Positions 991 through 43,478 of a DNA stretch of 45,978 nucleotides are shown here, piece by piece. Numbering within the stretch: the stretch's first letter is position 1; each line of letters begins with the position of its first letter. A program made the translations under genes and the position numbers. The stretch comes from a virus. The DNA is taken from IMG/VR virus record IMGVR_UViG_3300020060_000004, positions 1 to 45,978 of that record, one strand, 5' to 3'. A model generated the notes under the pieces. That model saw only the letters and a program-made list of their open reading frames with translations, did not search any database and was not told where the DNA came from.

Positions 991-1472
991 TAGACACCTG
1001 TCGGGTCGTTGATGAGACGGAACGCGTAAACCTTGTCGTTCTGCGTCATCTGAGCTAATCTAACAGCTGAGTACAGCGTAGCGTTGAACGCCGTAAGAGC
1101 CGCATCTAATGATGCTTCGTCATCAACACCAGATGAATCTACTAACATAGCCTTATCTGTAGATACAGTAGCTACAGCAGCAGCGGGGGTAAACGTTACA
1201 GGAGTACCGGTAGCACCGATAGCAGTAACCGTAAAGATAGTGAATTCCTTCGGAACACCCGCCGCGTTCTGAAGCATAAAACGGTCACCTAGGCGTGCAA
1301 CATTAACACCAGTGTTAAGGACAGCAACTGCTCCAACTAACGTAGTAGTAGAACCACCTGCGTTACAAGTAAACAGAAGTCCTAATACCGTGTGATTGAA
1401 TGTATCACCGAAAGGCTTACGCCGCTTATCAACATAAGAAGCATCTACCATAGAACCAATTTGATGTGCCAT
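990..1472 (-). CDS. Hypothetical virion protein
   Basis: This 160-residue protein begins MAHQIGSMVDASYVDKRR, followed by an Ala-, Thr-, Val- and Gly-rich region (about 30-120) typical of beta-structured capsid or decoration proteins. A helical C-terminus contains AFNATLYSAVRLAQM. Its start overlaps the portal stop by one base, and its stop overlaps the next gene. No family is recognised. Position directly after portal suggests a head decoration or connector role, but this is inference. Confidence 0.6.
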   Translation of the reverse strand: MAHQIGSMVDASYVDKRRKPFGDTFNHTVLGLLFTCNAGGSTTTLVGAVAVLNTGVNVARLGDRFMLQNAAGVPKEFTIFTVTAIGATGTPVTFTPAAAVATVSTDKAMLVDSSGVDDEASLDAALTAFNATLYSAVRLAQMTQNDKVYAFRLINDPTGV

Positions 1473-3784
1473 TACTGTGGGCCTCCTGACTGTAACTGCG
1501 GCATTGGATTAGGTCCTGGCTGTCCTTGGCCAGGAGGCATAGGCGGTTGCCCGTCTCCACCCTTAGCAATATTCTGATCAATCATCTCTCCGCCTTCTCC
1601 TCCACCAGGAGGCATTGGCATACCATCCGGTCCCATCTGCGGAGGTAACCCAGCAGCAACAGACGGATTCATAGTCTGCTGTTCAATACCGATTGCCATT
1701 ACGTGCTGCATTACGTGCTGCTCGAACAGAGCCTTAGTTTCCTCAGGCAGGTTCTCGAATGCTTGTCCCTTACGGAACTGGTTATGGTATTCGATATGAA
1801 TCTTGTGGTTATCCCACGTGTTAACGGGAACGATAAGCGGGAACGGAGGCATAGGAGCAGGAGCCGGGGGCTGACCCATCATAGCAGCCATCGGGTCCAT
1901 TTCAGGCGACTGCTGTAACGCATTAGGATCAGGCAAACCATTAGGCTGCATACCTGGCTGCATAGGATCCATAGAGTTGGGATCCATAGGCGCACCAAGT
2001 TGCGTAACATCTGCCATAGGATCAACTTCAGGTTGGAAGCTAGCCGCATACTCAGCTAACGTTTCCGGAGTTGCCTTAGACATACGCAAGTTCTCGCGCT
2101 GTGCCTGACGCTGATCAGTTTGAATCTGTTCGTAGATCTTATTAATGCCGCCCATGTCCATAACTTCAAGTCCCTTTTCGGGACTAATGAAGCCCATCTT
2201 CATGAGATCCATAATAAGAGCCTGCTTAGCTGCCTTACTAACAGGCAGAGCCGAGCCAGCTTCAATACGAAGGTCTGTGTTATCCCCTAAGTCAGAACCC
2301 TTAAAGGTCATGACGTCGAAAGATCCATTATCTCCAGTGACACGAATAAGCCGCTCAGTAGTCCAGTAATCCTTAACGAGCGCAAGAGACAAACGAGCCG
2401 TCTTCTCGATACACTCTTCTAAGGAATCAAACGTAGGACTGAGGTTAGACTCATCTCTTTCCTGTAGATAAGAGATTGCAGTAGCAGCAGTAACTCCCGG
2501 AGGTGCTCCACCCTTAGACACGTCATGCTGTCCTGCAATATCTTCCCAGTCCTTCTTAATCCTGTCCTGTTCTTCTAGAACATAGCTAGGAAGAGGAGTA
2601 AGAGGAATAGGCTTAGGCGGATCCATACCAGGCGTGTAAAGAACTACTAAGCCTGGCTCTGAGGTAATCTTGCTTGGATCTACAGAACCGCGAGCAGCGC
2701 TAAGTTGAGGCTTAGCCATACGGTTCTTGGCTTCAATGATCTGTCCACGCGTACGGTTATACTCACGCTGTAACGGGATTAGATCTACAGAAGAAGAGTC
2801 GCTATAGAACTTACCACTGGGGATGTGATCGAGCTTGGCAAATGGGTACTTCCCATGCTTATAAGGAAGCTCACCGAAAGCCTGTACGATCTTGTCACCA
2901 ATGACAGTAAAGAACGCACCCTCAGGGAACATCTTATGCTGTCCAGGCTTAACCCATACCTCTAGCACTAAGACTGACTGCTGCTTATTGTTCTGTGAAG
3001 AACCAGCAGTAAGGTTAAGGTACGAAGGTTCTAGAACGTCATTAGCATCCGCAGTACCTCCACCAGCAATCTTAGTCCCGTCCATAGCCTCAGGGAAGTT
3101 CATTGCTACCCACTCAGGCGACTTAGTCTGAGCGTGAATAAGGAAAGGCTGATTCTCAATCTCCTGCTCTAGGAAGTCAGGAACTAAGACATGGAACGGA
3201 GTCTCTGACGCATAGCAAACGTCACCTAGTGGCGCACCAGTAGTTTCATCCTTAGGACCACCACTAGCATCCCACCAGGTCTTAATGAATCCGTTACCGC
3301 AAACCTGATTCCACCATACAGCTTGTCTGATTAAGAACTTAAGCTTGTGCTCAATGTAAAGATTCTCCCAGACAGCCTCACCGGCCATAGCCGCGTACAT
3401 ATCCCTATCCTCAGCAGAGGCGGGAACAATACTAGCAGTAGGCTTGTTATTAGTGAGTGCTGCGATCTCATGCCTAATAGTAGGACGAATTAGATTGATT
3501 ACTGGACGGGCGCGATAGTACGGAGCCGGAGGAGTCCACAACTTAGTACTAGCGCCTGTGCCTGCATCTGGCCTAAGAATTGCAACGTTCTGCTTACCAA
3601 AAAAGAACGCCAGGTTAATATACCACTGACGTTCAATAGGTACACGCGCGTTACGAATAGCCTTATACTGGGACTTAGCCCACGACACCATAGCATCGTG
3701 CTGTTTAATGGCAGCCTTAGTACTACCTAGGTCCAACGCTGCGTCAGCGGTATTAACATCTGACCCAGATAAGGTTGCGGTCAC
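1472..3784 (-). CDS. Portal protein
   Basis: This is a 770-residue protein starting at GTG 3784, sharing bases with the upstream TAG stop. The N-terminal helical region includes a Trp-rich segment (WAKSQYKAIRNARVPIERQW). It is followed by the portal-like core INLIRPTIRHEIAALTNNKP and a later VDLIPLQREYNRTRGQIIE helix, as in large podovirus-type portals. Residues about 590-770 form a Pro-, Met- and Gln-rich tail. The protein would form the dodecameric ring through which DNA is packaged and ejected. It lies between TerL and scaffold/capsid, as expected. The low-complexity C-terminus is longer than in many portals and may be the barrel or an internal tail. Confidence 0.88.
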   Translation of the reverse strand: MTATLSGSDVNTADAALDLGSTKAAIKQHDAMVSWAKSQYKAIRNARVPIERQWYINLAFFFGKQNVAILRPDAGTGASTKLWTPPAPYYRARPVINLIRPTIRHEIAALTNNKPTASIVPASAEDRDMYAAMAGEAVWENLYIEHKLKFLIRQAVWWNQVCGNGFIKTWWDASGGPKDETTGAPLGDVCYASETPFHVLVPDFLEQEIENQPFLIHAQTKSPEWVAMNFPEAMDGTKIAGGGTADANDVLEPSYLNLTAGSSQNNKQQSVLVLEVWVKPGQHKMFPEGAFFTVIGDKIVQAFGELPYKHGKYPFAKLDHIPSGKFYSDSSSVDLIPLQREYNRTRGQIIEAKNRMAKPQLSAARGSVDPSKITSEPGLVVLYTPGMDPPKPIPLTPLPSYVLEEQDRIKKDWEDIAGQHDVSKGGAPPGVTAATAISYLQERDESNLSPTFDSLEECIEKTARLSLALVKDYWTTERLIRVTGDNGSFDVMTFKGSDLGDNTDLRIEAGSALPVSKAAKQALIMDLMKMGFISPEKGLEVMDMGGINKIYEQIQTDQRQAQRENLRMSKATPETLAEYAASFQPEVDPMADVTQLGAPMDPNSMDPMQPGMQPNGLPDPNALQQSPEMDPMAAMMGQPPAPAPMPPFPLIVPVNTWDNHKIHIEYHNQFRKGQAFENLPEETKALFEQHVMQHVMAIGIEQQTMNPSVAAGLPPQMGPDGMPMPPGGGEGGEMIDQNIAKGGDGQPPMPPGQGQPGPNPMPQLQSGGPQ

Positions 3785-4550: not shown

Positions 4551-6101
4551 TTAGTTCCAGCCACCTACTGTTTCATCAATGTGCGACCACTCAGTATTGC
4601 CTTGTGGCCTAAGAAGATTAGTATCAATATACCTTGGTCCTACAGGAACGGCCGTGGCCTGTAAAGCGGCGGCCACTGCTTCATTACCTGGTCTAGTCTT
4701 AAGATTCCCATTCTGGGGGATGTACAGCTCTGGCATGAGGCTAAAGAAGTAACGTGCTGAGTCTGGAGCGTGATCATCTTTCTTATGGATCTCTTCACGT
4801 ACGTTGTTCTCGTGCCTAAGCTTAGCTGAGTTGTATGTCTTCCACTTAACTCGTTGAATCTCACGAAGTAGATTAGTACAATTCTCAGTGATTACCCACT
4901 GCCCTGTACCTAGGTAGGCGTTCATCTTGTTGATACCGATACTGACATCATTATTGCCTAGGACAATCGGGATGCCATGCTTCATGTAGGCAAGCTTGAT
5001 GCTATCACCTGTGACGCCTTGGCGTTGGGTGATCGCGGGATCTCCTACATAGATTGAAGGGTGCACTCGTTCTGGATAACCATTGTGCTCAAGTACCTGC
5101 TTGGCGAATACTTCAACGACTGTTTCATTAGCGTAGATCTCATCGTAGGTAACGACGAAGCTTTTCCCTTGAGCATTGGGGGGACTAACGGCGTGCCAGA
5201 GCCAAGCAGTGGGGTTATTAAATCCATGGTCAAGGGACGCATAGTGTGTCCATCCCTTAAGCTTCCTAAGCTTTTCTGGAGTGAGAGGGTTAATAACATT
5301 TCTAAGGACATTGAAGTTCTTAAAAGCGAGTCCACCAATATTGACGAACTGTCCTTGCTTACGCGCTTTCCTGTCGTTCTCATCGAGGTCACCGATTACC
5401 TCTTCGATCTCCGCACTACTGATATAAGGATTCTCTGCCGTATCAATCATAGTGACACCGATACGACCACCAGGTACTAAGCCAGGAATATAAATCTCGT
5501 CATAAACCCACGTCATACCCATAACTGGTGTCATAGTCATCCACCAGTCGCCCTCAGTATCGACTAGTCGCATACGACACTCAGTATAGATTTCCTTAGG
5601 TGGCTCTTCATCGAAGTGGATAAAGTGACGAGAAGTACCTGCGAATTTATCAACGTCCTGATCATAGGACATAAGCTCACACGTACTGCCATTAGCTAGT
5701 GTCAGAAAACGGTCAGCCTTCTGGTAGCTATCTTCCCAAGAGCCGTTAATCAATTCAGAGGGAGGTAACCACTTCTGAAGCTCTGGGATAATAACTTGCT
5801 TAACACCCTCGTGAAAAGATGTAGTTACGATCCTTCCGCGAATGGGAGCTGGCGGTACGCGGAGATAAGGGTGCTGACCTCTAAGTCGCCAGATATCTTC
5901 GACAGTGCCGCCAACTGTCTTACCGCTTCTGTTACCACCGATGTAGAGACGTCCTCGTGAGGGGTCTGTGTGAAATTGTACTTGCTTATCGTGGGGCTTG
6001 TATCCGAAGATGGTGGGCCTTGAAACTGCACGATTCAATCCATCCTTAAATTGGAGTAATAGATCTTCTACAGAGGTGGTCTCCTCCTTACGTTTAGCCA
6101 T
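4551..6101 (-). CDS. terL: Terminase large subunit
   Basis: This is the 516-residue packaging motor. Walker A is GGNRSGKT at residues 55-62. The Walker B plus catalytic acid is FIHFDEEPP near residue 160. The C-terminal nuclease domain begins around YASLDHGFNNPTAW and includes YVGDPAI, supplying the acidic metal-binding residues of the RNase H-like fold. It acts with the portal to translocate DNA and cut it at the end of packaging. Start ATG 6101 overlaps the upstream stop. The length matches typical TerL. The nuclease type (headful or site-specific) cannot be told from this reading. Confidence 0.95.
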   Translation of the reverse strand: MAKRKEETTSVEDLLLQFKDGLNRAVSRPTIFGYKPHDKQVQFHTDPSRGRLYIGGNRSGKTVGGTVEDIWRLRGQHPYLRVPPAPIRGRIVTTSFHEGVKQVIIPELQKWLPPSELINGSWEDSYQKADRFLTLANGSTCELMSYDQDVDKFAGTSRHFIHFDEEPPKEIYTECRMRLVDTEGDWWMTMTPVMGMTWVYDEIYIPGLVPGGRIGVTMIDTAENPYISSAEIEEVIGDLDENDRKARKQGQFVNIGGLAFKNFNVLRNVINPLTPEKLRKLKGWTHYASLDHGFNNPTAWLWHAVSPPNAQGKSFVVTYDEIYANETVVEVFAKQVLEHNGYPERVHPSIYVGDPAITQRQGVTGDSIKLAYMKHGIPIVLGNNDVSIGINKMNAYLGTGQWVITENCTNLLREIQRVKWKTYNSAKLRHENNVREEIHKKDDHAPDSARYFFSLMPELYIPQNGNLKTRPGNEAVAAALQATAVPVGPRYIDTNLLRPQGNTEWSHIDETVGGWN

Positions 6102-6376
6102 TATAACTTCTCTACTGTAATCCTGTAACCATTGGCAAGATAGTCACCAATATCAGGTGTAGGCGACAATTCTGATTTACGTAACTGAATACTTACGTCT
6201 AAAACAGAACCATCTGGCAAGGTAGCTGATCCTGTTAAACTCTTGGAAAAATTCTCTACAGGATAGGTACTTCCAACAGTAGGGTTGATAAACTTTCTAT
6301 TACCTCCAATACTCTGACTGTGACTAGCAACAAAACCATTAGACGAATCGAATTCAACCTGAATTTCAATACTCAT
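6101..6376 (-). CDS. Hypothetical structural protein (91 aa)
   Basis: This 91-residue protein is rich in beta-forming residues and Ser/Gly (GSATLPDGSVLDVSIQLRKS). Start ATG 6376 overlaps the stop of the upstream gene and its stop overlaps the TerL start, so it is tightly coupled. No domain is recognised. A small head or tail component is possible by position only. Confidence 0.65.
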   Translation of the reverse strand: MSIEIQVEFDSSNGFVASHSQSIGGNRKFINPTVGSTYPVENFSKSLTGSATLPDGSVLDVSIQLRKSELSPTPDIGDYLANGYRITVEKL

Positions 6377-6693
6377 TACGGTACCTCCGTAAAGTCCACA
6401 AACCTATGAAGCATATCAATTATATTAAGAATCTTCTGTGCATCCGAAACAGCCGTGTGCAATTGAAGCTTACGACCTCGCCCAATTAAAGCACTACCAG
6501 CACCGTCATGCGCATGATCACCAGGACTAGCCTGATTGTGACCAATACCTAGTGTATGGTGAATCGCACCTGTAGATGCGTCCGTATCCGCACGCTCGTG
6601 AAACTGTCCTACTGTCCTAGGATCCGGAGCTGTACTTGTCTTCTCTTTTCTTATAGGCCCAAAAGGATCTCCATCTACTACTGCGCCTGCCAT
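6376..6693 (-). CDS. Histidine-rich small structural protein
   Basis: This 105-residue protein contains the motif HHTLGIGHNQASPGDHAHDG in its middle. N-Q-x-x-x-G-D-H-x-H-D/N-G strings are common in phage fibre, tail-spike and head-fibre proteins, where the His residues can coordinate metal. It starts 16 bases inside the end of the gene at 6678-6947 and is followed with overlap by the 91-residue gene. A surface or trimeric fibre role is a reasonable inference. Its placement beside TerL rather than among tail genes is unusual. Confidence 0.65.
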   Translation of the reverse strand: MAGAVVDGDPFGPIRKEKTSTAPDPRTVGQFHERADTDASTGAIHHTLGIGHNQASPGDHAHDGAGSALIGRGRKLQLHTAVSDAQKILNIIDMLHRFVDFTEVP

Positions 6694-6947: not shown

Positions 6948-6982
6948 TACGTACTCCTAACTCTATTCTTTTAATCTACAGG

Positions 6983-7006: not shown

Positions 7007-7126
7007 TTATTGGGCGTTGACCTTAAGCCAGTCATTAAGCTCTGCCGTGAACTCCGCGAGCTGGACTGCGTCAGAGTAGTCGATTGTATTCAGGCTCAAT
7101 AACTGCTTGGGCAAGTCGCCTACCAT
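7007..7126 (-). CDS. Possible small ORF overlapping end of the small-terminase-like gene
   Basis: A 39-codon frame begins at ATG 7126, inside the 3' end of the upstream gene, and ends at 7007. Its second half (TIDYSDAVQLAEFTAELNDW) has protein-like composition and lies outside the upstream gene, filling most of the gap before the next gene. I see no convincing ribosome site. It could be a small coupled gene, or a C-terminal extension of the upstream protein reached by frameshift. Confidence 0.35.
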   Translation of the reverse strand: MVGDLPKQLLSLNTIDYSDAVQLAEFTAELNDWLKVNAQ

Positions 7127-7748
7127 TAATGATTGCGTCGAAGTCATTACTAAGATCAGCCAAGACCTCAGGGTCCTTAACGCGCCGCTGAATCGATTCG
7201 ATAATCTGCGCCACGACAAGCTTGAGGTTTTGAGTGTTCCCCTCACCTGAATTGTATCGCCCTGTGAGTTCGTAATAGAATTTGATAGCCTGTGTTTCGC
7301 CATTGGCAATCGCCGTCCTTAAGCCATTCTGTGCTTCGGCAATAGTGTCCTCGAAGCTGTCACTAGCAGACTGTAATACGAATTCCTTAAACTGCTTATC
7401 GCGCATCCACGCATTCCACTGCGTAGTCGTACACCCTACTTCTTTCAGCTTCGTCTGTAACGTCCGTCGATCGTGAACGTCTAGGAATTTAGTCGCCGCC
7501 GCGATCTGACTTGCCGTGAATTGTGACGGCTTCCCTTTAAGCTCCACGTGCATTACTACCCCACGCGCGTGCATAGCGAAGATAAACGTACCGTTCACCA
7601 TTAACGCAGGCATGTCTTCGTCAGGGAACGTTCTTTCCAGTTCACCTAACGTCGGAAACGTCTTACGACGCAGCCAGTACTCTTCACAGTAGTTCACAAT
7701 GTCTAGCTGGTCGCCTGTTAAAGGCACTCGCTTAACTTCAGTACTCAT
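7071..7748 (-). CDS. Putative small terminase (helix-turn-helix)
   Basis: This 225-residue protein is the first gene of the leftward operon. The central part (about 75-150) has the layout of phage small-terminase DNA-binding proteins: FTASQIAAATKFLDVHDRR, then a helix-turn-helix-like LKEVGCTTTQWNAWMRDKQF, then a helix (about FVLQSASDSFEDTIAEAQ). The N-terminus resembles an unrelated winged-helix-like segment (LGELERTFPDEDMP). It would recognise phage DNA and load TerL. Gene order fits, although several small genes separate it from terL. A general DNA-binding regulator remains possible. Confidence 0.65.
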   Translation of the reverse strand: MSTEVKRVPLTGDQLDIVNYCEEYWLRRKTFPTLGELERTFPDEDMPALMVNGTFIFAMHARGVVMHVELKGKPSQFTASQIAAATKFLDVHDRRTLQTKLKEVGCTTTQWNAWMRDKQFKEFVLQSASDSFEDTIAEAQNGLRTAIANGETQAIKFYYELTGRYNSGEGNTQNLKLVVAQIIESIQRRVKDPEVLADLSNDFDAIINGRRLAQAVIEPEYNRLL

Positions 7749-7817
7749 GTGCTCGATCCTCCTAATTACAGCATAGCACTGGTTATCTACAGAAGGGGCA
7801 TGGCTCCGCCACCAAAA

Positions 7818-8837: not shown

Positions 8838-8880
8838 TCCCTGCACAATCAGAGCTTTATCTACAGAAAAGAGCAAGACA

Positions 8881-9891: not shown

Positions 9892-9990
9892 ATGAGTCAG
9901 GGAATACTTGCCGCTGAGGGGTTGTTCTTCCCTGTAGATAGAGCTTATGTGCTAGCTAGTATGGCTCGGGAATACCTGAGGGTGTGCTAA
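9892..9990 (+). CDS. Very small protein (32 aa), possibly leaderless
   Basis: ATG 9892 opens a 32-codon frame (beginning MSQGILAAEGLFFPVDRAY) that ends in TAA overlapping the next ATG (TAATG at 9988-9992). The hexamer TATACT at 9881-9886 is a good -10 box whose predicted start site falls on or beside the ATG, which suggests a leaderless message. The coupling to the next gene argues that the frame is real. Confidence 0.45.
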   Translation: MSQGILAAEGLFFPVDRAYVLASMAREYLRVC

Positions 9991-10241
9991 TGTTGGAGAT
10001 AGTGAAGGAAGGTAAGACAGTGGACAACCACAAGCTACTGAGTGACTACAGTGTTAAGGGTCACATATCAATGACTTGCGAGTGTGGATGGAAAGGCTCT
10101 CGGCACACAGTCAGTAAGGACGGGCATTACATGGCTCTTTGTGATGGTACTACCCATCTAGAGGATGAGCTTGCTAAGGCTAAGCAACTATTAGACAAGG
10201 CACAGCTTGACTATGGATACGTGCCGTTGCTTGCCCTGTAG
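9990..10241 (+). CDS. Small zinc-ribbon-like protein
   Basis: This 83-residue protein starts at ATG 9990, overlapping the previous stop. The centre holds CECGWKGSRHTVSKDGHY, with Cys and His ligands for a possible zinc site, followed by a helical C-terminus. The stop TAG lies inside a CTGTAGA motif (10236-10242). Function unknown. Confidence 0.6.
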   Translation: MLEIVKEGKTVDNHKLLSDYSVKGHISMTCECGWKGSRHTVSKDGHYMALCDGTTHLEDELAKAKQLLDKAQLDYGYVPLLAL

Positions 10242-10356
10242 ACCCCTCTAAGAGGTCCGGGAATACATCACCGCCCCGCAGTGTTCTACTCAGTGCAAGA
10301 GCTTAGAAGCCCTCTGAGCCGGTCGTAGACCGCCAAGACTTCTCTTCTCTTAAGAG

Positions 10357-23609: not shown

Positions 23610-23750
23610 CGGAAGTATAGTGAGGGCGTGGTCAGGTCCTAGGTCCTACTCCACCACGTGATGCCAATGTCTCCCGTAGTATTAGAGTACTCAGAGAGAA
23701 ACATAGCTATACTGACCTCCCTTAAGGTACCGTGAAACGCCTTAAGGTGA

Positions 23751-26049: not shown

Positions 26050-26077
26050 CTTAAACTGTTACGAAAGGAAGTGGTCC

Positions 26078-31129: not shown

Positions 31130-31159
31130 AGGAGAATATTACCTTGATCTACAGGGCTG

Positions 31160-32768: not shown

Positions 32769-33605
32769 CTAGTACCAGTTGTGAGATAGATGGAACGCTA
32801 AAGCCTTAGCCGGGGTTCCATAACGAGCCTTAATATATCTAGCCATCGCTTCCACCTGTAGCTTAGGATCACTAGTTTTAGCGATGCCGTACCCACCCCA
32901 CGTACTATTAAGGAACTGCCCAATACCATAGGCAGTAGACGTGGGATTTTGTGCATTGTTATTCCAGCCTGATTCCTTCATACCCAGCGTATACCAAGCA
33001 CCCATTTGACCAGGATCAGACCAACCGTAATTAGGTGCAATAGCTTGAGCGAATGCAAAGTTAGCACGCGGGTTAGACGGCACACTACCCATCTGTCCGC
33101 CACCACCGGTAGGACTACCGAAGATAGATCCGCCTTTATAGGATCCACCACTACCAGCAGCAATACCTGGTGTTTGTACTTGTTGATTAGCTAACTCTGC
33201 TGCCGCTCTAGCTCTAATAGCAGCTGATCTAGCAGCAGCTGCTGCCGTCTGCTGATTACCCATGTCAGTAATAGAACCTAACATGTCATAGTAACCTTGG
33301 AAGTTAGCAGGATTAGCATTAGAAGAATCAACAGCGTTAACACGTGCACCTGGCTCAAGCTTAGGTGGTTGCGCACGGTTAGCATACTTCTCTAGCTGCT
33401 GAGCGAAATAGTCACCAGTTAACGGTTGCTGTTCTTGCTGCCCTGGCTGACCTTCCATACCGAAGATGCTTGCATCTACAGGATTAGTAGCTCCCTGACG
33501 TGCGGCATAAAAGTCTTCATCGGTAAGTTTCTTACGTTTTCTAGGTAAGACAACAACGCCAGGTTGACCGTCAGTCGGCTTGAATATCGGGTTCAAAATA
33601 GCCAT
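32769..33605 (-). CDS. Virion-associated lytic transglycosylase
   Basis: This 278-residue protein has about 180 disordered, Gln- and Ala-rich residues, then an SLT-type lysozyme domain: WYTLGMKESGWNNNAQNPTS (catalytic Glu in KESGW), TAYGIGQFLNSTWGGYG and the closing MARYIKARYGTPAKA. It probably cuts peptidoglycan during DNA entry rather than lysis, because it lies beside the internal protein genes and lacks a signal peptide. The upstream giant gene ends two bases before its start. Confidence 0.82.
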   Translation of the reverse strand: MAILNPIFKPTDGQPGVVVLPRKRKKLTDEDFYAARQGATNPVDASIFGMEGQPGQQEQQPLTGDYFAQQLEKYANRAQPPKLEPGARVNAVDSSNANPANFQGYYDMLGSITDMGNQQTAAAAARSAAIRARAAAELANQQVQTPGIAAGSGGSYKGGSIFGSPTGGGGQMGSVPSNPRANFAFAQAIAPNYGWSDPGQMGAWYTLGMKESGWNNNAQNPTSTAYGIGQFLNSTWGGYGIAKTSDPKLQVEAMARYIKARYGTPAKALAFHLSHNWY

Positions 33606-33607
33606 TG

Positions 33608-36600
33608 CTATCCTCCCATCTTCTCACGAAGTTCACTCAGGAAGTCAGTCTTAGCAGCTTTCTTAGCAGCTTGAATCGGAGCGTTAGCTTCATACTGAGC
33701 AGACTTAACGTACTGTCCAGTTCCCTTAATACCGAGACCAGTAAGCCAGTTAACTACTGCTTCCTTACCAGACTGATTACCACTGAGGTCAGCACGCTTA
33801 GTCTGGCCACCAGTAGGCGTTAACCCTGTCATGCCCTGAACAGCACTCCAGAGCGGTATCTGCTCCCCCATGTACTGCGAAAGCGCGCCAGGGGCAGCCT
33901 CAGGGCCAGTAATCGGCTCTCCGGTGAACGTCTTCCTGCCCGTGATCATGGTCTCAAGCGGGATCTGGACTAGTGGAGTAAGGCTACTACCGATAGTCTT
34001 ACCGGGGTGTTGTAACTCTTGCATAAGCGAAGCAATAGGATTAAGTCCAACGCCTGCTTGTACATAGCCCGGTACTGCTTGATTACTGAATTTACCTAAT
34101 GCACCGTCTGGTAAGCCAATAGGACCAACGCCTTCATTCCTAAGCCACTCAGGGAACATCTGATCTACAGGGAAGGGCTGGTCTCGGCTCGTGTCAATCC
34201 CCTGAGCTGATTGTAACGCCTCACCGATCTTAGACGGTAAGACTGTGATACGGGGATTCATTACCATGCCCTCTAGCAGTACTGGCGTGCTCTTACGCAT
34301 CCAGCTATAGAAGGGAATGATACGACGCATCACGTTACGCTCAAAAGCAGTTAAGTCAATACCACTTGGATGGAACTTACGAGACCTGCGTGAAGCTTCC
34401 TCGAAGATCTTAGGTAAGTCACTGCCACGAGACTTCATAACAACATCAATAAAGTGAGCAAGCCGTGTGTTGTGCGACTCTAGCTCACTAGCACCGCGTG
34501 CTAAGCCAGCTATCTTGCCACCTAATGGATTTTGTAGACTAACGCCACCTCTTGCTTGTCCCAAGTCGATGATATCTTCCAAAGTTTTGACATGTTCAAA
34601 GAGGCCCTTTTGATGAGCCACTGCCGCAATTTGCTCGGCAGTAAATTTGACTCCAGATTTATTAGAGAATAGAGTCTGGCCAGGCAGAGGCGCCAACTCC
34701 CTCTTAGAAACAGCGCCAATCTCCACCATCTTATCGATATCCTGCATCGTTTCATAGGCACCCTTCATCTGGCGCTGTACTCGTAATGCCAACTTGTAAG
34801 GCTTAACGGAGACAACACCATCTAACATACCCATGTAAACGTCACCAATGAGGTTACGGATATGATGTGCTGGCCTGTAGATCGTAGCTAAGGTCTTCCA
34901 GGAACTAAGCACTTTATCATAGAGCCTAAGCGCAGCTCGGTTCTCAGGAGTTCCTAGCGTCCAGTCCTTGACCACTCTAGGAATCTGCTTAGCAATCTCT
35001 GGCGGGAAGTGGTATCCAGCTAAGTAAGGGTGACCCTCAATCTTAGTAGTGAATCCCTTTCCGTAGACAGAGCTACCGAAGCGTTCTCCCATGTCCTCAA
35101 AGAGAGCCTTCTCACGCGTGGCTTGTTCCATGGCCTGCATAGACTTGTACATCCACTCAGCAGGATCCATCTTACCAATATCGTGTGCTCTCCAGCTGTC
35201 TAGCCAGTCAGTACCCTTAGAGAAGTCCATCTTCTCACCAGTAAAAGCACTGTCAAACTTATGCGACTTAGAGAACTGGAACTGAGTTCCATAGCGTCGC
35301 ATCCACTTGTTAAGCATATCTCTGTCAACGCCACTGCGAATGAGCACAGATGATCCTGAGACTTTGCTTAATAAATCGTCCATCATGACCTTAATACCCT
35401 TGGTCAGTTCGACGATTCTTGCAGTGCTTGCAACTCCAGTTCCTTGTGCAAGTCTAAAAGCTTCCGCACGTTCACCGGCGTCATAGCCGGTAAACATCTT
35501 ATTAAGTACTTTTCCTCTGGCTTCTGCCGTAGCTGCTGCCGAAGCAATTGCATTGAGGCTCTCTGCTCTAAGGTCCTGTTGTCCAAACCACGTTGCAACA
35601 CGGCCCATAACCGCTTCAACGGCTTTATTGTCATTCTGTGCCCACTTGGGAATTACGCCTAAATCTTTCTCCAGCGCTAACGTAAGCGCATGGTTAACTT
35701 TGAGGTTCTGCTTACCTGTAGCTACAACCTCGTCAATCTGCTTAGCCATTTGTTCTGTCTTGATGTACGCAGCAGACTTACCTGAGTTGATAGCTTCGTT
35801 AACTAGCTTGTCAGTAGCCTTGGCACCAGCAGGAGATAGAGTATCTTGGGCTACGTATTTACTGAAGTCCTTAAGGAACTTGTCCCAGTTCTTAGTCTGT
35901 ACGTCAGAGATACCGCTAGCACCAGGCTTAGTAGCTGCCTTGGAATCTGCTATAGCATCAACGATCTTCTTTGCGGGAATACTGTCAGTGATAGCACCTC
36001 TGGCGCGCAGTCTCTCAACGGCGCCGCTAATTTCGCTTCCTGCTTTGAGTTCGGTACCAAATTCGCGGAGATGCTGATCTGTAACGTTAATACCACGGAT
36101 GGCTAAATCGTCCATAACGCTAGACAGGTTTACATTCTCACCAGTACCAATGCGAGGGATCTTACCGGCTTCCATAAGCTTAGATTCAGAAGCCTGGTAA
36201 ATCTTCCTAGTGTTGTCATAGATATCAGATTGTACCTTGGCGGCGTCGCGACCTTTCCTAAACACCATTTGCTCAGCTTTAGCCTTAGCACTGTACCAGA
36301 GCTTTACTTGCTGCTTTGCATTCAGTGTATCCGGGTGTGTTTTATTCAGTGTTGCACTAGCCTTCTCCGGATTAAACTTAGCCAAAATCTCATCGGCAAA
36401 TTTATTATGGATAGGTGCTAGCTTTAACTTAGGGACCGGCGCAAGCTTAAGAGCGTCAGCAATGTTTCCATCAGCTAACCCTGCTACAATCTTTGTTGCC
36501 TTCTCAGCTGTAGCAATCTTCACAGCCTCACGTGTCTTCTTGACATTTAAGCCAGGAAGATTAAACGCTAATTGGCCGGGAACTTCTTTATCTACAGGAA

Positions 36601-37348
36601 GGGCAGTAGGTTCGTCTATCTTATTACGGATCTCATCAGGAATCGTGATCTTAGGCTTGCTAGCCGGTAAGCCAGGGAAGTCTAAAACACTCTGCGGAGT
36701 CGTAAAGCCAGGCTTAGTCTTAAGAGGTTCCGGAATTACTGGTAGGTCTACAGGAGCCTTCAACGCCTCGGGAAGTTTTACTTCAGGCTTAGAAGCTAAA
36801 CCAAAGTTCTCTGGGACGAGGGGTTCACCAGAGCGAAGCATCTTCTCAGCGGCGGGCAGCTCACTAACAGCCTTCTCAGCTTTACCTAATCCAGTAGCTC
36901 CCTTAATACCCTTAAAAACTTTACCGATAGCTGCCCCAGGAATATAAGTCGTGGGGTCTAACAAAATGTCCAAGGCTAGGCCAGCAATGGCGGTGTCTCC
37001 ACCACGGGGATTACCACTACCGGGCCTAGCCAGGACATCCTGGAAGGTTGTCTTCTGAGTCCCCGCTAAACCACTCATGGCAGACGCGAGAGGATTAGGG
37101 TTAGGCTGGTCTAAGAAGTCCTTCACAGTATTAGCAATAGCGTAGTTGGGACGGGAAAGAACGTCGAAAATCTTACTCATCCATGACGGATCGTTCTTAA
37201 CATCTCCAGGCCCACTAGCCTTGCTTGATTGGGAGTTTAAGAGAATGTACTTAGCAACGTCAGCACTTTTAACCCCTAAAGGCTTACCGCCTAGGGGTTG
37301 TTTTAAGTAATTCTTGAGAGTCTCGTTAGCAAACTCAGGAATTGCCAT
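33608..37348 (-). CDS. Giant internal virion / ejection protein
   Basis: This 1246-residue protein is the largest in the genome. The N-terminal 250 residues include LDILLDPTTYIPGAAIGK, a pattern found in large phage minor-head or internal proteins. The rest is mostly helical, with RPAHHIRNLIGDVYMGMLDG and RRIIPFYSWMRKSTPVLLEG. In podoviruses such proteins form the internal core and are ejected into the cell to build a channel. It lies between the Gln-rich proteins and the virion transglycosylase, as an ejection cassette would. Confidence 0.72.
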   Translation of the reverse strand: MAIPEFANETLKNYLKQPLGGKPLGVKSADVAKYILLNSQSSKASGPGDVKNDPSWMSKIFDVLSRPNYAIANTVKDFLDQPNPNPLASAMSGLAGTQKTTFQDVLARPGSGNPRGGDTAIAGLALDILLDPTTYIPGAAIGKVFKGIKGATGLGKAEKAVSELPAAEKMLRSGEPLVPENFGLASKPEVKLPEALKAPVDLPVIPEPLKTKPGFTTPQSVLDFPGLPASKPKITIPDEIRNKIDEPTALPVDKEVPGQLAFNLPGLNVKKTREAVKIATAEKATKIVAGLADGNIADALKLAPVPKLKLAPIHNKFADEILAKFNPEKASATLNKTHPDTLNAKQQVKLWYSAKAKAEQMVFRKGRDAAKVQSDIYDNTRKIYQASESKLMEAGKIPRIGTGENVNLSSVMDDLAIRGINVTDQHLREFGTELKAGSEISGAVERLRARGAITDSIPAKKIVDAIADSKAATKPGASGISDVQTKNWDKFLKDFSKYVAQDTLSPAGAKATDKLVNEAINSGKSAAYIKTEQMAKQIDEVVATGKQNLKVNHALTLALEKDLGVIPKWAQNDNKAVEAVMGRVATWFGQQDLRAESLNAIASAAATAEARGKVLNKMFTGYDAGERAEAFRLAQGTGVASTARIVELTKGIKVMMDDLLSKVSGSSVLIRSGVDRDMLNKWMRRYGTQFQFSKSHKFDSAFTGEKMDFSKGTDWLDSWRAHDIGKMDPAEWMYKSMQAMEQATREKALFEDMGERFGSSVYGKGFTTKIEGHPYLAGYHFPPEIAKQIPRVVKDWTLGTPENRAALRLYDKVLSSWKTLATIYRPAHHIRNLIGDVYMGMLDGVVSVKPYKLALRVQRQMKGAYETMQDIDKMVEIGAVSKRELAPLPGQTLFSNKSGVKFTAEQIAAVAHQKGLFEHVKTLEDIIDLGQARGGVSLQNPLGGKIAGLARGASELESHNTRLAHFIDVVMKSRGSDLPKIFEEASRRSRKFHPSGIDLTAFERNVMRRIIPFYSWMRKSTPVLLEGMVMNPRITVLPSKIGEALQSAQGIDTSRDQPFPVDQMFPEWLRNEGVGPIGLPDGALGKFSNQAVPGYVQAGVGLNPIASLMQELQHPGKTIGSSLTPLVQIPLETMITGRKTFTGEPITGPEAAPGALSQYMGEQIPLWSAVQGMTGLTPTGGQTKRADLSGNQSGKEAVVNWLTGLGIKGTGQYVKSAQYEANAPIQAAKKAAKTDFLSELREKMGG

Positions 37349-37354: not shown

Positions 37355-38650
37355 CTACCCTCTACCGAAGTACTGTAACGCCGCATCCCTTAGTGCGTTA
37401 ATCTCTGGTCCGGATAATCCTTGCTGCCTGGCCTGCTCTACAATCTGCTCAGCCTTAGCCTCAGGAGTAGCGTTAGAACCTGTCTGCGGGTCTAGTCCAC
37501 TCTTGATAAGGCCCTGGCTTAAGCCACCAACGAAAGTATCTAAGCCTCGCTGCGCAGCACCCTGGTCCAAGCCGAGAGACATCAGATACTTAGGTACGTC
37601 CTGTAGAGTCTTAACACCTGTAGTCTTATTCAATCCAGCCATCTTAACCTGCGCATCTAGTGCGTCAGAATTAAGTCCACGGCCTAAGTTGATAGACGCT
37701 AGGAAGTTGTTAAAGTCAGACTGACTGCGATCGAGAGCATTCTTCTGAGATTGCTGTTGCATCTGGCTCTTATTAGCAGTATAAGCCTGAGCCTTAGCAG
37801 CCTCGTTAGCGCCAATCTTGTCATTGTACTGATTCAGTAATTCGGTAAGCTGAGACATGATGTCAGCCGACCTCTGGGTACCCTCAGTACGAGCCATAGA
37901 GCTACCCTTTTGGGCGTAGTCTACTGCTCCTTGCTTCTCCGTCGTAAGCGCCGCCGCTTGGGTTTGTTTATCAGTATTAGAGCGATTGACAAAGTACTCT
38001 TTGTCACGGGCTTGTCCTGGAGTAATACCAGGAGCTGCCGCTTGAATGTTAAGGCGCTGGAATAAGTCCTCTTGCTGCTTCTGAGTATCATTGTACTGTT
38101 GCTCAATCCCAGAGTTTAGCTGGTCATACTGCTGATTACTCTTACCAGTAGTCTCATCATAGTTCTTCTGAATGCCAGGAATATCTCCCTGCAAAGAACC
38201 ACCAAGCTGGTTAAAGATGTCAATGACACTCTTCTGGTTCTGTTCTCCACGACGCGTCGCTGCCGCCGCTTGGCTGCGTAAGCCAGCGATAACCGGGTCA
38301 TACTGCGCACTTGCTGCCGCCCTAGCGCCTTCCTCAATGCCCGAATCATTCATATAACGACTTGGGTCAGAGAGTGCTCTAAGTTGGTCTAGGATGCTAT
38401 CTGTAGATGACTGATCTTCATCACCGCTAGCAAACGGACTCATGCTGTCAATTAAGCCAGTAGTGGGATACTTGTAGCTAGGAGAAGGCAGTGGGTTACC
38501 GGCATAAGCCCTAGTAATCGGCTTTCTGCCATTGAACAGAGGGCTATTCTTAACAAATTGGTTAGCTTGTGCTTGAAATCCCTCGTTCTGCATAAAGCCG
38601 AGATTCGCAGAAGGCCGAAGAAGCTCAAGGGCATCAGTAACCCAAGACAT
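37355..38650 (-). CDS. Gln-rich internal virion protein
   Basis: This 431-residue protein is rich in Gln, Ala, Asn and Ser, with long amphipathic helices (AAAATRRGEQNQKSVIDIFN, YNDTQKQQEDLFQRLNIQA). There is no signal peptide or membrane helix. Composition and position between the giant protein and smaller Gln-rich genes suggest an internal core component ejected with DNA. It ends six bases before the giant gene start. Confidence 0.6.
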   Translation of the reverse strand: MSWVTDALELLRPSANLGFMQNEGFQAQANQFVKNSPLFNGRKPITRAYAGNPLPSPSYKYPTTGLIDSMSPFASGDEDQSSTDSILDQLRALSDPSRYMNDSGIEEGARAAASAQYDPVIAGLRSQAAAATRRGEQNQKSVIDIFNQLGGSLQGDIPGIQKNYDETTGKSNQQYDQLNSGIEQQYNDTQKQQEDLFQRLNIQAAAPGITPGQARDKEYFVNRSNTDKQTQAAALTTEKQGAVDYAQKGSSMARTEGTQRSADIMSQLTELLNQYNDKIGANEAAKAQAYTANKSQMQQQSQKNALDRSQSDFNNFLASINLGRGLNSDALDAQVKMAGLNKTTGVKTLQDVPKYLMSLGLDQGAAQRGLDTFVGGLSQGLIKSGLDPQTGSNATPEAKAEQIVEQARQQGLSGPEINALRDAALQYFGRG

Positions 38651-39252: not shown

Positions 39253-39473
39253 TACACACTCCTTTGAGCGTTAGCAGAGGCGTAGTCGCCCTTTTGAGTA
39301 GCCTTTAACTTATTCAAGATGGCCTGACGCCTAGCCGCTGCCCTTGCATCTCGTTCTCTGTAACCTTGTTTATCTACAGGGCCGTTAGTAGGGTTTGGCC
39401 TACCTCCACCATAGACTCGGTTACCGACCAGGTAAGGAGCTACAGAAGCCTGCTGTCTGCTTAAGTAAGCCAT
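39252..39473 (-). CDS. Small basic structural protein (73 aa)
   Basis: This 73-residue Arg- and Gln-rich protein (YLSRQQASVAPYLVGNRVYG, RERDARAAARRQAILNKLKA) overlaps both neighbours by one base. No domain is recognised. It probably belongs with the internal virion proteins. Confidence 0.6.
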   Translation of the reverse strand: MAYLSRQQASVAPYLVGNRVYGGGRPNPTNGPVDKQGYRERDARAAARRQAILNKLKATQKGDYASANAQRSV

Positions 39474-41638
39474 TATGTAAGCCCCTTAGAGACTCCTTGT
39501 TTCACGGCCGTAACGATGCTCATCGTAAACAGTCTAGCAGGCCCATCCCCTGTAGATCCATCAGTTATTAACTGGACAGAGAAATTGATCTGCCTATATC
39601 GTAATGATTTCAAGAACTTCACGAAACGTCTAGCTGTGCCAGTCTGGGTCATGACAACTGTCGTTACCCCAGAAGATGCAGTAATAGGCTGTGCCCACGT
39701 CTGTAACTGATTCCATCTGTAAGCCGTTAGCTGAGCCCACGTTACAGAGAAAGATACAGTAATAGGCGCAACTGTTCCTACAATATTTCTGTTAGTAATA
39801 ACATCCGCTCCCCACCACCATAATCGCTTATACTGGTTAGGCACAGCCATATCAAAATTCTTAGTTTTAACTACACAAGTGATGTCAGCTTTTACGTTAA
39901 GCATGTTAGCAATAGCAATGTTATCGAACTGCACATTTGGAGTAACGTTAGTATTAGGTCCAGAAATGAACGACCCAATGCGCAACCCTCCAACTGTGAA
40001 AGTAGCGTCAACAGCTGACACCATATAAGCCATTGGCTCAGGTAGAGACGCCTTCCACATCTTAGCAGAGATAGTAGTACCATTGAGCCTAAATCTAAAC
40101 TGATACTTCTCGGCAGCTGCATACGTACCTGGAACTGCGGCAGTACCCAATAACGTAGCAGCACCGCCTACTACCTTGTAGATATCAAGGGAAGCATTAC
40201 CAACTAGATTATAGTTAGCTCGCATGAGATATGCATCAGAAGTACCAGCCGGTGCTACTCTTGCCCACGCATCTACTGTATAGACTCCACCTAATGCTAC
40301 TGCTGACATAGTGGCATCAAACGTGATATCTACAGCAGAGAACTGATCGTTGAGCTGACCTAGTACTGTAACACCTTTAGCTGCGTGTGTAATACGTCCG
40401 GTCCCGGCTGAAACTGACAGCTGGCTAGCTACACCGCCATCTTGCAACCAAGTTTGACCAGTGTTAGTTACGCCCCACGCGTTAGCTACTGTCCTCTCAA
40501 AGGTGTCAGTAATAGTGGGAGTAGGATCCATAGTCTGTTCAAAGGTCGTTGCTGTAGATTTATCGAACAGCTGAATCATAGTACGATAGGCTAAGATAGA
40601 TGAGCCTGCGTACCATTCGTCACCTGTAGTTAAATGAATGGCGACAACAGGACCAAAGTACTTAAGACGATCTCGTGCGCTAGTCCATTCCGACCAAGTC
40701 CTAGTACGGAGACCATACACATAAATACGAGAAAAATAACGAGCGATAAGCTTGTCGCCGACCAGGGCGAGGAATTCCTTTTCCGCCGCAAACGGCGATG
40801 GCGTTGTTTGGTCGTTGACAAAGGCTACCTTAGTGTTAAGACGGTTAAAGTCTAGGTTGATGATCTCATAGACCCAACCGTTGTGAAGTACGTAAACCTG
40901 GTTCTCATAGTTAATGACACAGTTAGACGTATCGACACCGATCGTCTCACTGATGCGCTTAACGGTAGCGTCTTCGGGACGGATATCATAAGCCAAAATG
41001 TACGAAGATTCATTTTTAAACAGAAGTAGGTTATCCTGATATACATTTACATCGATTAGGAAAGTTCCATCGCCCTGGCCAATATCAATAAAATTTGCAG
41101 GCGGCCATACGTCGAAGTTTCCAGCGTTAGTAAATGATACTCTTGATGTGTTAGCAGTAGCTGCAATACCAGGTACGACAAACAGGCGCTCTTTATGAAT
41201 TGCACAGGCACCACCTTGCGGAATAGCTGCAACAGCTACAAAACCACCAGAAGGATCCCACTTACCACCAGGATTAGCAGAACCAGGAGCTGATACTAGG
41301 TAGACCTTATCGGCGTACTGTACTGCACAAGAGGCACGGAAAGTAGTAGTGATGACGCTCCATACTCCATTGAGATATGAAAAGACACCGTTGCTATTAC
41401 TACCGATAAGATAGTGGACGTTGTTAAAGACACCTTCACATAACAGTACGATTCGTTCTGTGAAGCTTGAGTGTCCGTCTCGTTCCAACAGAGGGGGGCG
41501 ACTAACAAGAGATCCATCAATGTCTAAGTCCAGGTTAGTACTGGTTACCAATTCGGCATCAGCAATAGCGGTGGGGTCAGAACCTAAGTTCAAGCCACCG
41601 ATAAATGGACCTAGTCGAAGATTGTTACCACCAGACAT
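39473..41638 (-). CDS. Tail nozzle (beta-propeller) protein
   Basis: This 721-residue protein begins LRLGPFIGGLNLGSDPTAIA, an opening found in podovirus tail nozzle proteins. It continues with repeated beta-blade-like segments to about 330 (VLLCEGVFNNVHYLIGSNSN, IHKERLFVVPGI, YVYGLRTRTWSEW). A beta-sandwich-like insertion follows (about 390-560), perhaps carbohydrate-binding, and then a return to the propeller. It would form the hexameric tip below the adaptor. It follows the gp4-like adaptor gene, the usual order. Confidence 0.75.
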   Translation of the reverse strand: MSGGNNLRLGPFIGGLNLGSDPTAIADAELVTSTNLDLDIDGSLVSRPPLLERDGHSSFTERIVLLCEGVFNNVHYLIGSNSNGVFSYLNGVWSVITTTFRASCAVQYADKVYLVSAPGSANPGGKWDPSGGFVAVAAIPQGGACAIHKERLFVVPGIAATANTSRVSFTNAGNFDVWPPANFIDIGQGDGTFLIDVNVYQDNLLLFKNESSYILAYDIRPEDATVKRISETIGVDTSNCVINYENQVYVLHNGWVYEIINLDFNRLNTKVAFVNDQTTPSPFAAEKEFLALVGDKLIARYFSRIYVYGLRTRTWSEWTSARDRLKYFGPVVAIHLTTGDEWYAGSSILAYRTMIQLFDKSTATTFEQTMDPTPTITDTFERTVANAWGVTNTGQTWLQDGGVASQLSVSAGTGRITHAAKGVTVLGQLNDQFSAVDITFDATMSAVALGGVYTVDAWARVAPAGTSDAYLMRANYNLVGNASLDIYKVVGGAATLLGTAAVPGTYAAAEKYQFRFRLNGTTISAKMWKASLPEPMAYMVSAVDATFTVGGLRIGSFISGPNTNVTPNVQFDNIAIANMLNVKADITCVVKTKNFDMAVPNQYKRLWWWGADVITNRNIVGTVAPITVSFSVTWAQLTAYRWNQLQTWAQPITASSGVTTVVMTQTGTARRFVKFLKSLRYRQINFSVQLITDGSTGDGPARLFTMSIVTAVKQGVSKGLT

Positions 41639-41641
41639 CTT

Positions 41642-42298
41642 CTACCACTGATCTTCCGCTAATACCGTAATTGTGGGATACGTAGCTTCTTCTTTCCAGT
41701 CATCTCGACCACGAAGAACCCTAAGATCTCCTGCGATCTGTTGGCCCTTAGCACCTACTGCGTCCCAGTCTTCATCCATCTCATACGCGTAAGCGAGACA
41801 CATGCGGACAATAGTGGGATGATAAACCTCAGGCAGCTCAGGAATGTCTACATCAGATGCAACCAATATTGGCTTACGATTGTAGTAGATCTTCATAGCT
41901 GCTGCGAGATTATGATCAGGAGGGAAGAACAAAGTAATCTTATTTGCAAAGATCATATAGCAAATAGGAGTACCGTTACGAGAAGTGTTACCGTCCCAGC
42001 TACCGATGTACTCATTAAACTCGTTAATCGAGTAGCCCTTGAGCTGAGTATAAGCTACTTCTCCGGGAGCTTTATAAGACAGGCTGCGGAAGATAAGAGT
42101 ATCTACAGGAAGGGAATACTCAGCCTGCCCGGCTACTGATGCTGAGACAGCCGAAGCCTCGAATAAGCCTTCATTCTCCTTAGCAATTTCCATCTGCGCA
42201 TCGTTGATATAACGAATCAGATCAGTATCATCGATCTGTACACCTGACTCATCACCGAACGCCCGCTTAACGCGTGTCTTAATCTCCCCAACGTTCAT
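41642..42298 (-). CDS. Head-tail adaptor (gp4-like)
   Basis: This 218-residue protein has an N-terminal helical region typical of P22 gp4-like / T7 gp11-like adaptors: VGEIKTRVKRAFGDESG, DTDLIRYINDAQMEIAKENE. A beta-rich middle (AGQAEYSLPVDTLIFRSLSY) precedes a C-terminal helix (IVRMCLAYAYEMDEDWDAVG). It would dock under the portal and hold the nozzle. It is immediately followed by the nozzle gene. Confidence 0.8.
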   Translation of the reverse strand: MNVGEIKTRVKRAFGDESGVQIDDTDLIRYINDAQMEIAKENEGLFEASAVSASVAGQAEYSLPVDTLIFRSLSYKAPGEVAYTQLKGYSINEFNEYIGSWDGNTSRNGTPICYMIFANKITLFFPPDHNLAAAMKIYYNRKPILVASDVDIPELPEVYHPTIVRMCLAYAYEMDEDWDAVGAKGQQIAGDLRVLRGRDDWKEEATYPTITVLAEDQW

Positions 42299-42754
42299 TT
42301 ATATTCTGTTCCTCTCATCGTCCATCTTGATGAGCTTACCTGTAGATTCGTCCTTACCCATCTTCAGGTAGTTAATCTTACTGCGGTGAAGGAACTCAGC
42401 CTTATCCATCTCTTCTTCGTACTGATCCATACGAGCTTTCTGTTCCATCAATGTCTTAGCATTGTTCATAGCCTCTAAGCGAGTGAGAACGTCACCGTGC
42501 TTGTTATCAGCCATAAACAAACCGGTAAGTATATCCTCTGGGCTATCTAACTCACTGGCATATGTGACGATGTGCTGAGTCTGATTATCGAAGATTACGT
42601 AGGGCTTACGGTCATCACGAGTACGCTTATCGGGCGGGATCCACATAAGCTGTAGATTGTGATCGTAATCTTGGATGAGCCTAGCTAAGCGCTCAAACCC
42701 CTCATTGACCCATTGACCGTCATCTGTAGGAATGAAAACCATGCTATCCACCAT
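42299..42754 (-). CDS. Hypothetical virion protein (151 aa)
   Basis: This 151-residue protein has an N-terminal half that mentions a beta-strand-like segment (RKPYVIFDNQTQHIVTYASE). The C-terminal half is a charged helix (MDQYEEEMDKAEFLHRSKIN). It overlaps the upstream DUF4082 gene by 11 bases and abuts the adaptor gene. It may be a connector or chaperone. Confidence 0.6.
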   Translation of the reverse strand: MVDSMVFIPTDDGQWVNEGFERLARLIQDYDHNLQLMWIPPDKRTRDDRKPYVIFDNQTQHIVTYASELDSPEDILTGLFMADNKHGDVLTRLEAMNNAKTLMEQKARMDQYEEEMDKAEFLHRSKINYLKMGKDESTGKLIKMDDERNRI

Positions 42755-43478
42755 TCGCTATAAGTTTACACAATCTCCAGTAATGAACTGCTGGAGTTGC
42801 GTCAGTCTTAGTAATGACTGTTTGACCACCAAAGGCAAGTGTCAGTACCATGAGATCCACATTAGAGATCTTCTGAGGTTCTACTAAGCTCAATTGCGTT
42901 AACATACGTTGTCTAGCAATATCCGCTACTGATCCTACCACGCCGCCCCCTCCCGGGGTGTCTGTAATAATTACGTCAACCCAGAAATTACCTCCACCAA
43001 ATGTGGAAGTAGGATAAATTAGAGCGCCCCCAGTAGTGAAAGAATCCTGGCCGTCTTGCGAATTAGCTGAATCCACAATATGGAGAGGACCATTAATGAT
43101 CCCACCAAATCCAGCACCAGGAGATACAAAGTAGCCACTAGTAGCTGTGTAATTAGTAGGGAAGAATATAGTACCTTTATAATGTTGGTTCTGCGTTAGT
43201 CCTACAGGAAGGGCCAAATCCTTACGCTGCCAGCCTATCCCTGCTAACGCTTCGAATTTTGCATCAGTCCCGGCAACTGCTGAACCTACTCCAGGTCCGT
43301 CAATTTTATAGCAACGTGCATCAGGCAATCCTAAGATGCCTACGTCTCCTCTGTAGAATCTAAATCCCTTAAAATAGAGATTAGGTTGATCTACAAAGAA
43401 CTCAACGCCAAGCGAAATAGGCACATCGGAAGCAAGGGTGTTAGGACCATTGCCTACGAAGCCTACCCACTCAGTCAT
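42744..43478 (-). CDS. DUF4082-domain virion protein
   Basis: This 244-residue protein has a core (about 20-185) that matches DUF4082: GVEFFVDQPNLYFKGFRFYR, FPTNYTATSGYFVSPGAGFG, then TGGALIYPTSTFGGGNFWVD. DUF4082 is a beta-sandwich domain usually found next to carbohydrate-active modules. On a phage particle it is a strong candidate for sugar or receptor binding. A small helical tail (about 195-244) may attach it to the virion. It follows the terminator hairpin at 43497-43528. Confidence 0.75.
   Translation of the reverse strand: MTEWVGFVGNGPNTLASDVPISLGVEFFVDQPNLYFKGFRFYRGDVGILGLPDARCYKIDGPGVGSAVAGTDAKFEALAGIGWQRKDLALPVGLTQNQHYKGTIFFPTNYTATSGYFVSPGAGFGGIINGPLHIVDSANSQDGQDSFTTGGALIYPTSTFGGGNFWVDVIITDTPGGGGVVGSVADIARQRMLTQLSLVEPQKISNVDLMVLTLAFGGQTVITKTDATPAVHYWRLCKLIANGG

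Follow-up and report, generated by a model that had tools for sequence, protein, structure and literature searches.

Dispersed CTGTAGA words in a phage genome and its relatives as a probable initiation site of the phage primase

Why should a phage genome carry the same seven bases dozens of times, on both strands and mostly inside genes? The question is raised by IMGVR_UViG_3300020060_000004, a virus record in IMG/VR, which was analysed over its stretch of 45,978 bases (here called the window) and in which the word CTGTAGA, or its complement TCTACAG, recurs from one end to the other. The comparison with related and unrelated phages directs attention to a primase-helicase and a family A DNA polymerase (PolA) encoded in the window. 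We consider it quite probable that the dispersed word is a lineage-specific, extended site at which the primase of the phage initiates when it primes the lagging strand.

Enrichment and placement of the word

The original prediction of about 57 copies is borne out by exact counting, which yields 60 (31 CTGTAGA and 29 TCTACAG), where about 9.5 are expected from an order-3 Markov model of both strands. Under this model the word is the most over-represented 7-mer of the window. A longer form of it is TTYCCTGTAGAT, and the extended words ATCTACAG and ATCTACAGGAA occur 37 times (2.5 expected) and 10 times (0.05 expected), respectively.

The exact copies, taken from the 7-mer count as CTGTAGA for the plus and TCTACAG for the minus strand, are located on the plus strand at 1157-1163, 2462-2468, 6570-6576, 9932-9938, 10236-10242, 11944-11950, 13866-13872, 14923-14929, 15091-15097, 15870-15876, 17845-17851, 20016-20022, 21501-21507, 23518-23524, 24795-24801, 25966-25972, 26982-26988, 27877-27883, 28273-28279, 29991-29997, 30606-30612, 32373-32379, 32603-32609, 34875-34881, 37601-37607, 38401-38407, 39550-39556, 40552-40558, 42340-42346, 42650-42656 and 43351-43357; those at 2462 and 11944 lie within TTTCCTGTAGATAA. 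On the minus strand they occupy 2679-2685, 2784-2790, 6067-6073, 6255-6261, 6975-6981, 7786-7792, 8860-8866, 12939-12945, 14963-14969, 15574-15580, 17672-17678, 20459-20465, 21885-21891, 23496-23502, 24058-24064, 25902-25908, 27004-27010, 27091-27097, 27833-27839, 29267-29273, 31148-31154, 31473-31479, 33475-33481, 34164-34170, 36591-36597, 36747-36753, 39373-39379, 40329-40335 and 42102-42108. The example positions named before are correct apart from 42341, which should read 42340. Three sparse stretches that had been pointed out are real, with gaps of 3283, 2171 and 3784 bp, but such gaps also arise by random spacing. A regular spacing of the pooled sites had to be rejected for the window, as their distribution is indistinguishable from random placement (coefficient of variation 0.94).

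As had been claimed, codon use alone does not explain the word. In the comparison set beforehand as a refutation test, the codons of the called genes were shuffled synonymously 300 times with proteins and codon usage preserved: the coding DNA contains 51 copies, the shuffled versions 10.8 on average (standard deviation 3.1, maximum 20). By the gene calls, which were made in this analysis and are based on open reading frames (ORFs), 26 copies are in sense and 25 in antisense orientation and nine are placed outside genes, which together with the strand counts agrees with the predicted lack of strand bias. An approximately twofold density in noncoding DNA was not recovered with these calls (9 of 60 copies in about 10% of the sequence, P = 0.14). 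Amber recoding by a tRNA with CUA anticodon was considered as a source of the TAG in the motif and rejected, there being no copy with a sense in-frame CTG-TAG. The bases 5' of the CTGTAGA core are pyrimidine-rich in the window (65-79% at the five nearest positions).

Short words that are scattered through a genome and vary between lineages are familiar as the stoperators of cluster A mycobacteriophages and as DNA uptake sequences, which have other readers and purposes and which the present sites do not resemble in orientation, location and gene association. That a repressor or nucleoid protein uses the sites like stoperators, likewise dispersed and lineage-specific, has in our view only a faint chance. 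Stoperators are mainly intergenic and oriented to transcription, whereas 51 of the 60 sites are intragenic and the sense and antisense copies are balanced. Moreover, neither an integrase nor a lysogeny repressor came to light in the scanned window proteins, which did not include every small orphan protein, and the word occurs in structurally unrelated phages which share the replication module.

Dialects, loss and recurrence among other phages

A comparison by capsid found 481 relatives, and the isolates nearest to the window in this respect are the Arthrobacter phages Jasmine and Adat, Cellulosimicrobium phage DS1 and Microbacterium phage Shocker. A dispersed motif is retained in relatives of the window in the form of other dialects, which matches neither of the outcomes foreseen in the original prediction. 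A dialect with a CTGT core is carried by 22 relatives whose genomes are full or near-full, and wherever the replication module is complete, such a relative has a dominant dispersed word of its own: CTGTAGCG in G001 and G002, CTGTAGA(C) in G005 and G010, CTGTAGG in G012 and ctEqG8, CTGTAGC in G013-G015, CTGTGGC in G016, CTGTCGCG in G018, CTGTCGC in DS1, CTGTGGG in Jasmine and Brad, and CTGTAAAG in Shocker. With each motif chosen from the same genome in which its enrichment was measured, the Shocker word reaches 45 copies versus 1.8 expected, and the dialects CGCTACAG, CGCGACAG and CTGTGGGA reach 56 versus 2.1, 48 versus 1.1 and 23 versus 2.2. The same holds for loci recovered via PolA and having an N-terminal primase: 58 primases were examined, and apart from a small number of loci that are short or weak, each comes with an enriched CTGT-type hexamer. 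The third position of the core varies, with GTG in several lineages and in unrelated phages and GTA or GTC in others. Individual sites turn over as well: 11 genes of the window contain 32 CTGTAG sites, 7 of which are found at the homologous position in G005.

Some of these phages carry additional words. Shocker (L032) has a second dispersed word, TACCCTAA/TTAGGGTA (15 copies versus 0.04), and a third, CCCTGTCG (27 versus 3.8), which may represent promoters or an earlier dialect of the primase. In Jasmine and Brad (L033, L034), CTATGCTA(C) is enriched alongside CTGTGGG (10 versus 0.7-0.8), and in L220 and L221, where the CTGTGGG word is modest, CTTTACC/CGGTAAAG is enriched (21 versus 4.5).

Seven relatives (G019-G025) have no dispersed word with CTGT core, and their best core hexamer ranks 81st or lower. 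A tree built from five structural proteins unites them in a single clade inside the motif-bearing phages, with the motif-bearing G027 as sister (support 0.997); the pattern is one single loss event. PolA is encoded by 21 of the 22 motif-bearing genomes (the one without it is a fragment of 30 kb) and by none of the seven, and in all seven the primase-helicase is reduced to its C-terminal ATPase half, with the N-terminal primase half absent. The remaining family-wide genes are retained. Potential readers of a DNA word are still present in these seven genomes, namely the helix-turn-helix (HTH) partner of the terminase, TerL, a Cas4-like exonuclease, Sak4, a RuvC-like protein and WhiB.

The original prediction had taken the word for a possible binding site of a nucleoid, partition, recombination (Chi-like), regulatory or packaging protein; priming was not among the roles listed. 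The idea of a sequence-specific site read by a protein that the phage encodes is supported, whereas the roles named are disfavoured because their identifiable candidate readers all persist in the motif-less relatives, from which the primase domain and PolA are absent. Chi sites are dispersed short words too, and the phage carries a Cas4-like exonuclease (20777-21679) and Sak4 (21679-22464), so that a control of this Cas4/RecB-type exonuclease, or of a host recombination nuclease, may be envisaged. However, both proteins are retained in all seven motif-less relatives, the two strands are used equally and Jasmine's word is not shared by two other phages of its Arthrobacter host, which makes Chi-like sites very unlikely. 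A packaging signal would find its reader in the conserved HTH-like DNA-binding protein which adjoins the terminase (7071-7748) and is probably the small terminase. This protein, too, is kept in all seven, and packaging has no need of dozens of evenly spread sites; we regard such a signal as barely credible. In two of the motif-less genomes, G020 and G022 (L125-L127, L130-L132), another, weaker dispersed word, ACCGACG/CGTCGGT, is enriched (34 copies versus 9.3 and 27 versus 8.6).

Since the loss is a single event, the association leans also on unrelated phages sharing the replication module. Eight phages with a homologous primase but other structural genes and hosts were found by protein search with the primase half: Gordonia phage Cozz, Microbacterium phage Huwbert, Pseudomonas phage PMBT14, Brevundimonas phage Strzyga, Curtobacterium phage Yappy, a Desulfofustis phage and the two environmental phages ctuI7215 and ctfzr933. 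Of about 2,050 hexamers, one of CTGTGG, GTGTGG, CCTGTG and CTGTGC takes rank 1 or 2 in each of these phages, and TGTG(G/C) is the most enriched hexamer family. No enrichment of Jasmine's CTGTGGG was detected in two phages of its host, Arthrobacter sp. ATCC 21022, that lack the module (12 copies versus 8.3 and 2 versus 3.0). This speaks against a word imposed by the host (uptake, methylation or host Chi) and mimicked by the phage, with which the differing dialects of relatives on different hosts would agree; the word moreover vanishes together with phage genes, and a host-imposed origin is thus hardly plausible. Acinetobacter phage SH-Ab 15497, which has a related PolA and no recognised homologous primase, shows no such word. 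In this phage (L177), CGGTTGCTC/GAGCAACCG was counted nine times versus 0.2 expected.

Overall, the phages with this primase carry dozens of copies of their word, roughly one in every 1-2 kb. The spacing of the sites was analysed per strand in 21 genomes, where it averages 0.7-3 kb. Same-strand sites are evener than chance in this set of related, unweighted genomes, with a Stouffer z of -4.6 versus uniform placement and of -2.2 versus strand-label shuffles. Such evenness is expected if each strand separately needs starts at Okazaki spacing. A strand switch as a mark of an origin was looked for in the window and not found. In Strzyga (L171), in contrast to the other phages, the strand preference of CTGTGG switches at about 30,283 (cumulative range 19, P < 0.001 in 2000 permutations), which possibly indicates an origin or unidirectional replication.

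The primase-helicase as candidate reader

The primase-helicase (26042-27811, plus strand) comprises 589 amino acids and combines an N-terminal archaeo-eukaryotic primase (AEP) domain and a putative helix bundle with a C-terminal DnaB/RecA-like ATPase. It matches phrog_10514 'DNA primase' at residues 24-181 and Pfam AAA_25 at residues 342-506. An AlphaFold2 model of the first 320 residues (mean pLDDT 89.7) was compared by Foldseek, and from both the catalytic Prim-Pol domain was placed at about residues 21-205 (26102-26656, plus strand). Its predicted structure is that of an AEP primase and comes closest to RepB' of plasmid RSF1010 (3h20, E=2e-11), followed by the AEP domain of the cyanophage S-2L PrimPol (6zp9, E=5e-9) and the RepB' catalytic domain with DNA (3h25, E=7e-8). 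Sequence profiles agree to a lesser extent: 6zp9 is matched weakly (E 0.01), and Pfam RepB_primase is matched by 9 of 33 members. The catalytic pattern [DE]xD...H...D is kept in the aligned relatives as E/D105 (D or E nearly throughout), D107, H133 and D162, and these columns are invariant or nearly so in alignments A3 and A5.

The region that follows (about residues 223-312; 26708-26977, plus strand) consists of helices only in the model and resembles a helix bundle; an alignment with full RepB' covers 315 columns at a root-mean-square deviation of 18.8, with a different domain orientation. We propose this region as the template-recognition part. Columns associated with the third base of the dialect (z>4) are denser here (7 of 69) than in the pooled columns of the catalytic domain, the helicase and PolA (18 of 1033; Fisher P 0.0005, uncorrected for relatedness), and G248, E277, F292 and K293 are the helix-bundle columns most closely tied to that base.

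PolA (27801-29564, plus strand) matches Pfam DNA_pol_A and DNA_pol_A_exo1, the latter for a 3'-5' exonuclease. It is an unlikely, though arguable, idea that the motif is read by another co-lost replication component, chiefly PolA or its complex, in a pause, a restart or a nick-primed start. Within the family, the presence or absence of PolA tracks the motif exactly, and the top covarying column lies in PolA. On the other hand, SH-Ab 15497 combines a related PolA with the lack of the word, and the helix bundle is richer in dialect-associated columns than the remainder that contains PolA. Family A polymerases are not known for a template specificity of 7-9 nucleotides, whereas AEP primases read GTG-type motifs (PMC8718748, PMC8076596).

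For the primase as reader, the following course of events may be envisaged. The N-terminal AEP domain with its helix bundle would trail behind the helicase and scan the single-stranded lagging-strand template, where it would recognise GTAGAT in the window and GTGGGA, GTCGCG, GTAGCG, GTAAAG and others in relatives. The primer would start opposite the T and C just 5' of the recognised word (5'-pppA-G...), and copying of the pyrimidine-rich stretch upstream would give purine-rich primers beginning with A-G, a synthesis that should depend on the template word CTGTAGAT. PolA is proposed to extend the primer to an Okazaki fragment. Sites on both strands at Okazaki-like spacing would be understood because each strand is the lagging template in different forks. 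Selection would maintain the sites, chiefly by synonymous changes, and dialects would arise when the recognition part drifts and the sites of the genome follow. With somewhat more reserve, we think it likely that widespread phage AEP primases read lineage-specific words of 7-10 nucleotides, which are kept evenly on both strands as a grid of Okazaki starts and with which the recognition domain co-diversifies.

In bacterial and T7-type primases, trinucleotide template sites (CTG, GTC) fix the primer start. The similarity is that short template words set the starts; these primases belong to another enzyme family and read three bases, whereas the word described here is long enough for a genome-wide enrichment signal. 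Closer models come from AEP primases. The primase of pRN1 needs 5'-GTG, to which its helix bundle binds; the initial dinucleotide is formed on the two bases that lie 5' of this triplet (PMC8076596). NrS-1 PrimPol works best on GTGG or GTGA and starts one base 5' (PMC8718748), and the ssiA site of RepB' contains a GTG that was proposed as initiation site (PMC4434180). The phage words fit this layout, as (C/G)T is followed by GTGG in the unrelated phages and CT by GTAGAT in the window. ORF904 of the Sulfolobus plasmid pRN1 has the arrangement of AEP, helix bundle and helicase that is predicted here, and its layout matches (C/G)T-GTG-G (PMC8076596); in contrast, the window lineage has A or C at the third base, a site of 8-10 nucleotides and enrichment on both strands of the whole genome. 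NrS-1 likewise encodes an AEP primase-polymerase-helicase, which also uses an 8-nucleotide site, TTTGGTTA, with a start just 5' (PMC8718748). This site is present in two copies only (PMC7102993) and the enzyme is itself the replicative polymerase, whereas in the present phages the dispersed sites number 28-134 per genome and PolA is a separate enzyme. RepB' of RSF1010, the nearest solved fold, has a specific single-strand initiation site with GTG (PMC4434180). It differs by one 40-nucleotide hairpin site per strand and by leading-strand replication only. An earlier description of genome-wide primase sites in phages was not found in the open-access literature, to which the search was confined, subscription papers being outside it.

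Several observations weigh against the primase as reader. The primase domain and PolA were lost jointly and nearly always co-occur, so their roles are separated weakly; the strongest dialect-associated column of all is in PolA (F570, z 10.7), and the covariation of columns and dialects is confounded by ancestry. The core of the window is GTA and that of the published primases GTG. The pyrimidine tract, strong in the window, is weak when all genomes are taken together, where the three positions nearest the core reach about 63-65%. The test of evenness makes no correction for relatedness or for constraint by coding, and same-strand evenness is not seen in Strzyga and G018. Cyanophage S-2L has a related PrimPol and no such word. 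The word is also missing from Quantum and CN1A, each of which matches half of the primase domain only, whereas Yappy, likewise a half-domain match, has it.

The starts of primases are usually known from test-tube work only, as three-base words. If the proposed reading is true, the genomes described here are written maps of priming sites, and the specificity of many phage primases could be read from genome sequence without an experiment. The pairs of recognition domain and word would then form a natural series for studying the recognition of single-stranded DNA by AEP primases, and one would have a case in which selection for lagging-strand synthesis acts on a whole genome. A strong k-mer signal, otherwise mistaken for regulatory or recombination sites, would be explained as well.

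Further features of the phage

The genes of the window include those for a portal protein, a terminase, a major head protein, an SNF2-type helicase, the primase-helicase and the family A DNA polymerase. No plasmid relatives of the window were found. Jasmine is a podovirus with terminal repeats of 1,330 bp, and in the same study an integrase is encoded by Galaxy alone (PMC5513430).

A WhiB-type transcription factor (30680-31129, minus strand; Pfam E 2e-15) is encoded family-wide where the structural half meets the replication half and is present in the motif-less genomes, too. An ORF of 162 amino acids at 30421-30909 seemed to be motif-specific (16 of 22 versus 0 of 7 genomes) and was rejected as probably no gene: it is antisense to the WhiB gene and looks conserved because of this gene beneath it on the opposite strand.

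At 23537-23610, ARAGORN reports a tRNA whose anticodon is CUA; it is labelled tRNA-Pyl and may act as an amber suppressor. It is below the Rfam gathering threshold for tRNA, which is reached by a Leu tRNA (23751) and an Arg tRNA (25977). The tRNA cluster is adjoined by a gene of the uracil-DNA glycosylase superfamily (23849-24451). A Tad2-like protein (23164-23406; Pfam PF11195, E 3e-26) is a candidate anti-Thoeris sponge, and its best relative in G001 is situated in the terminase region.

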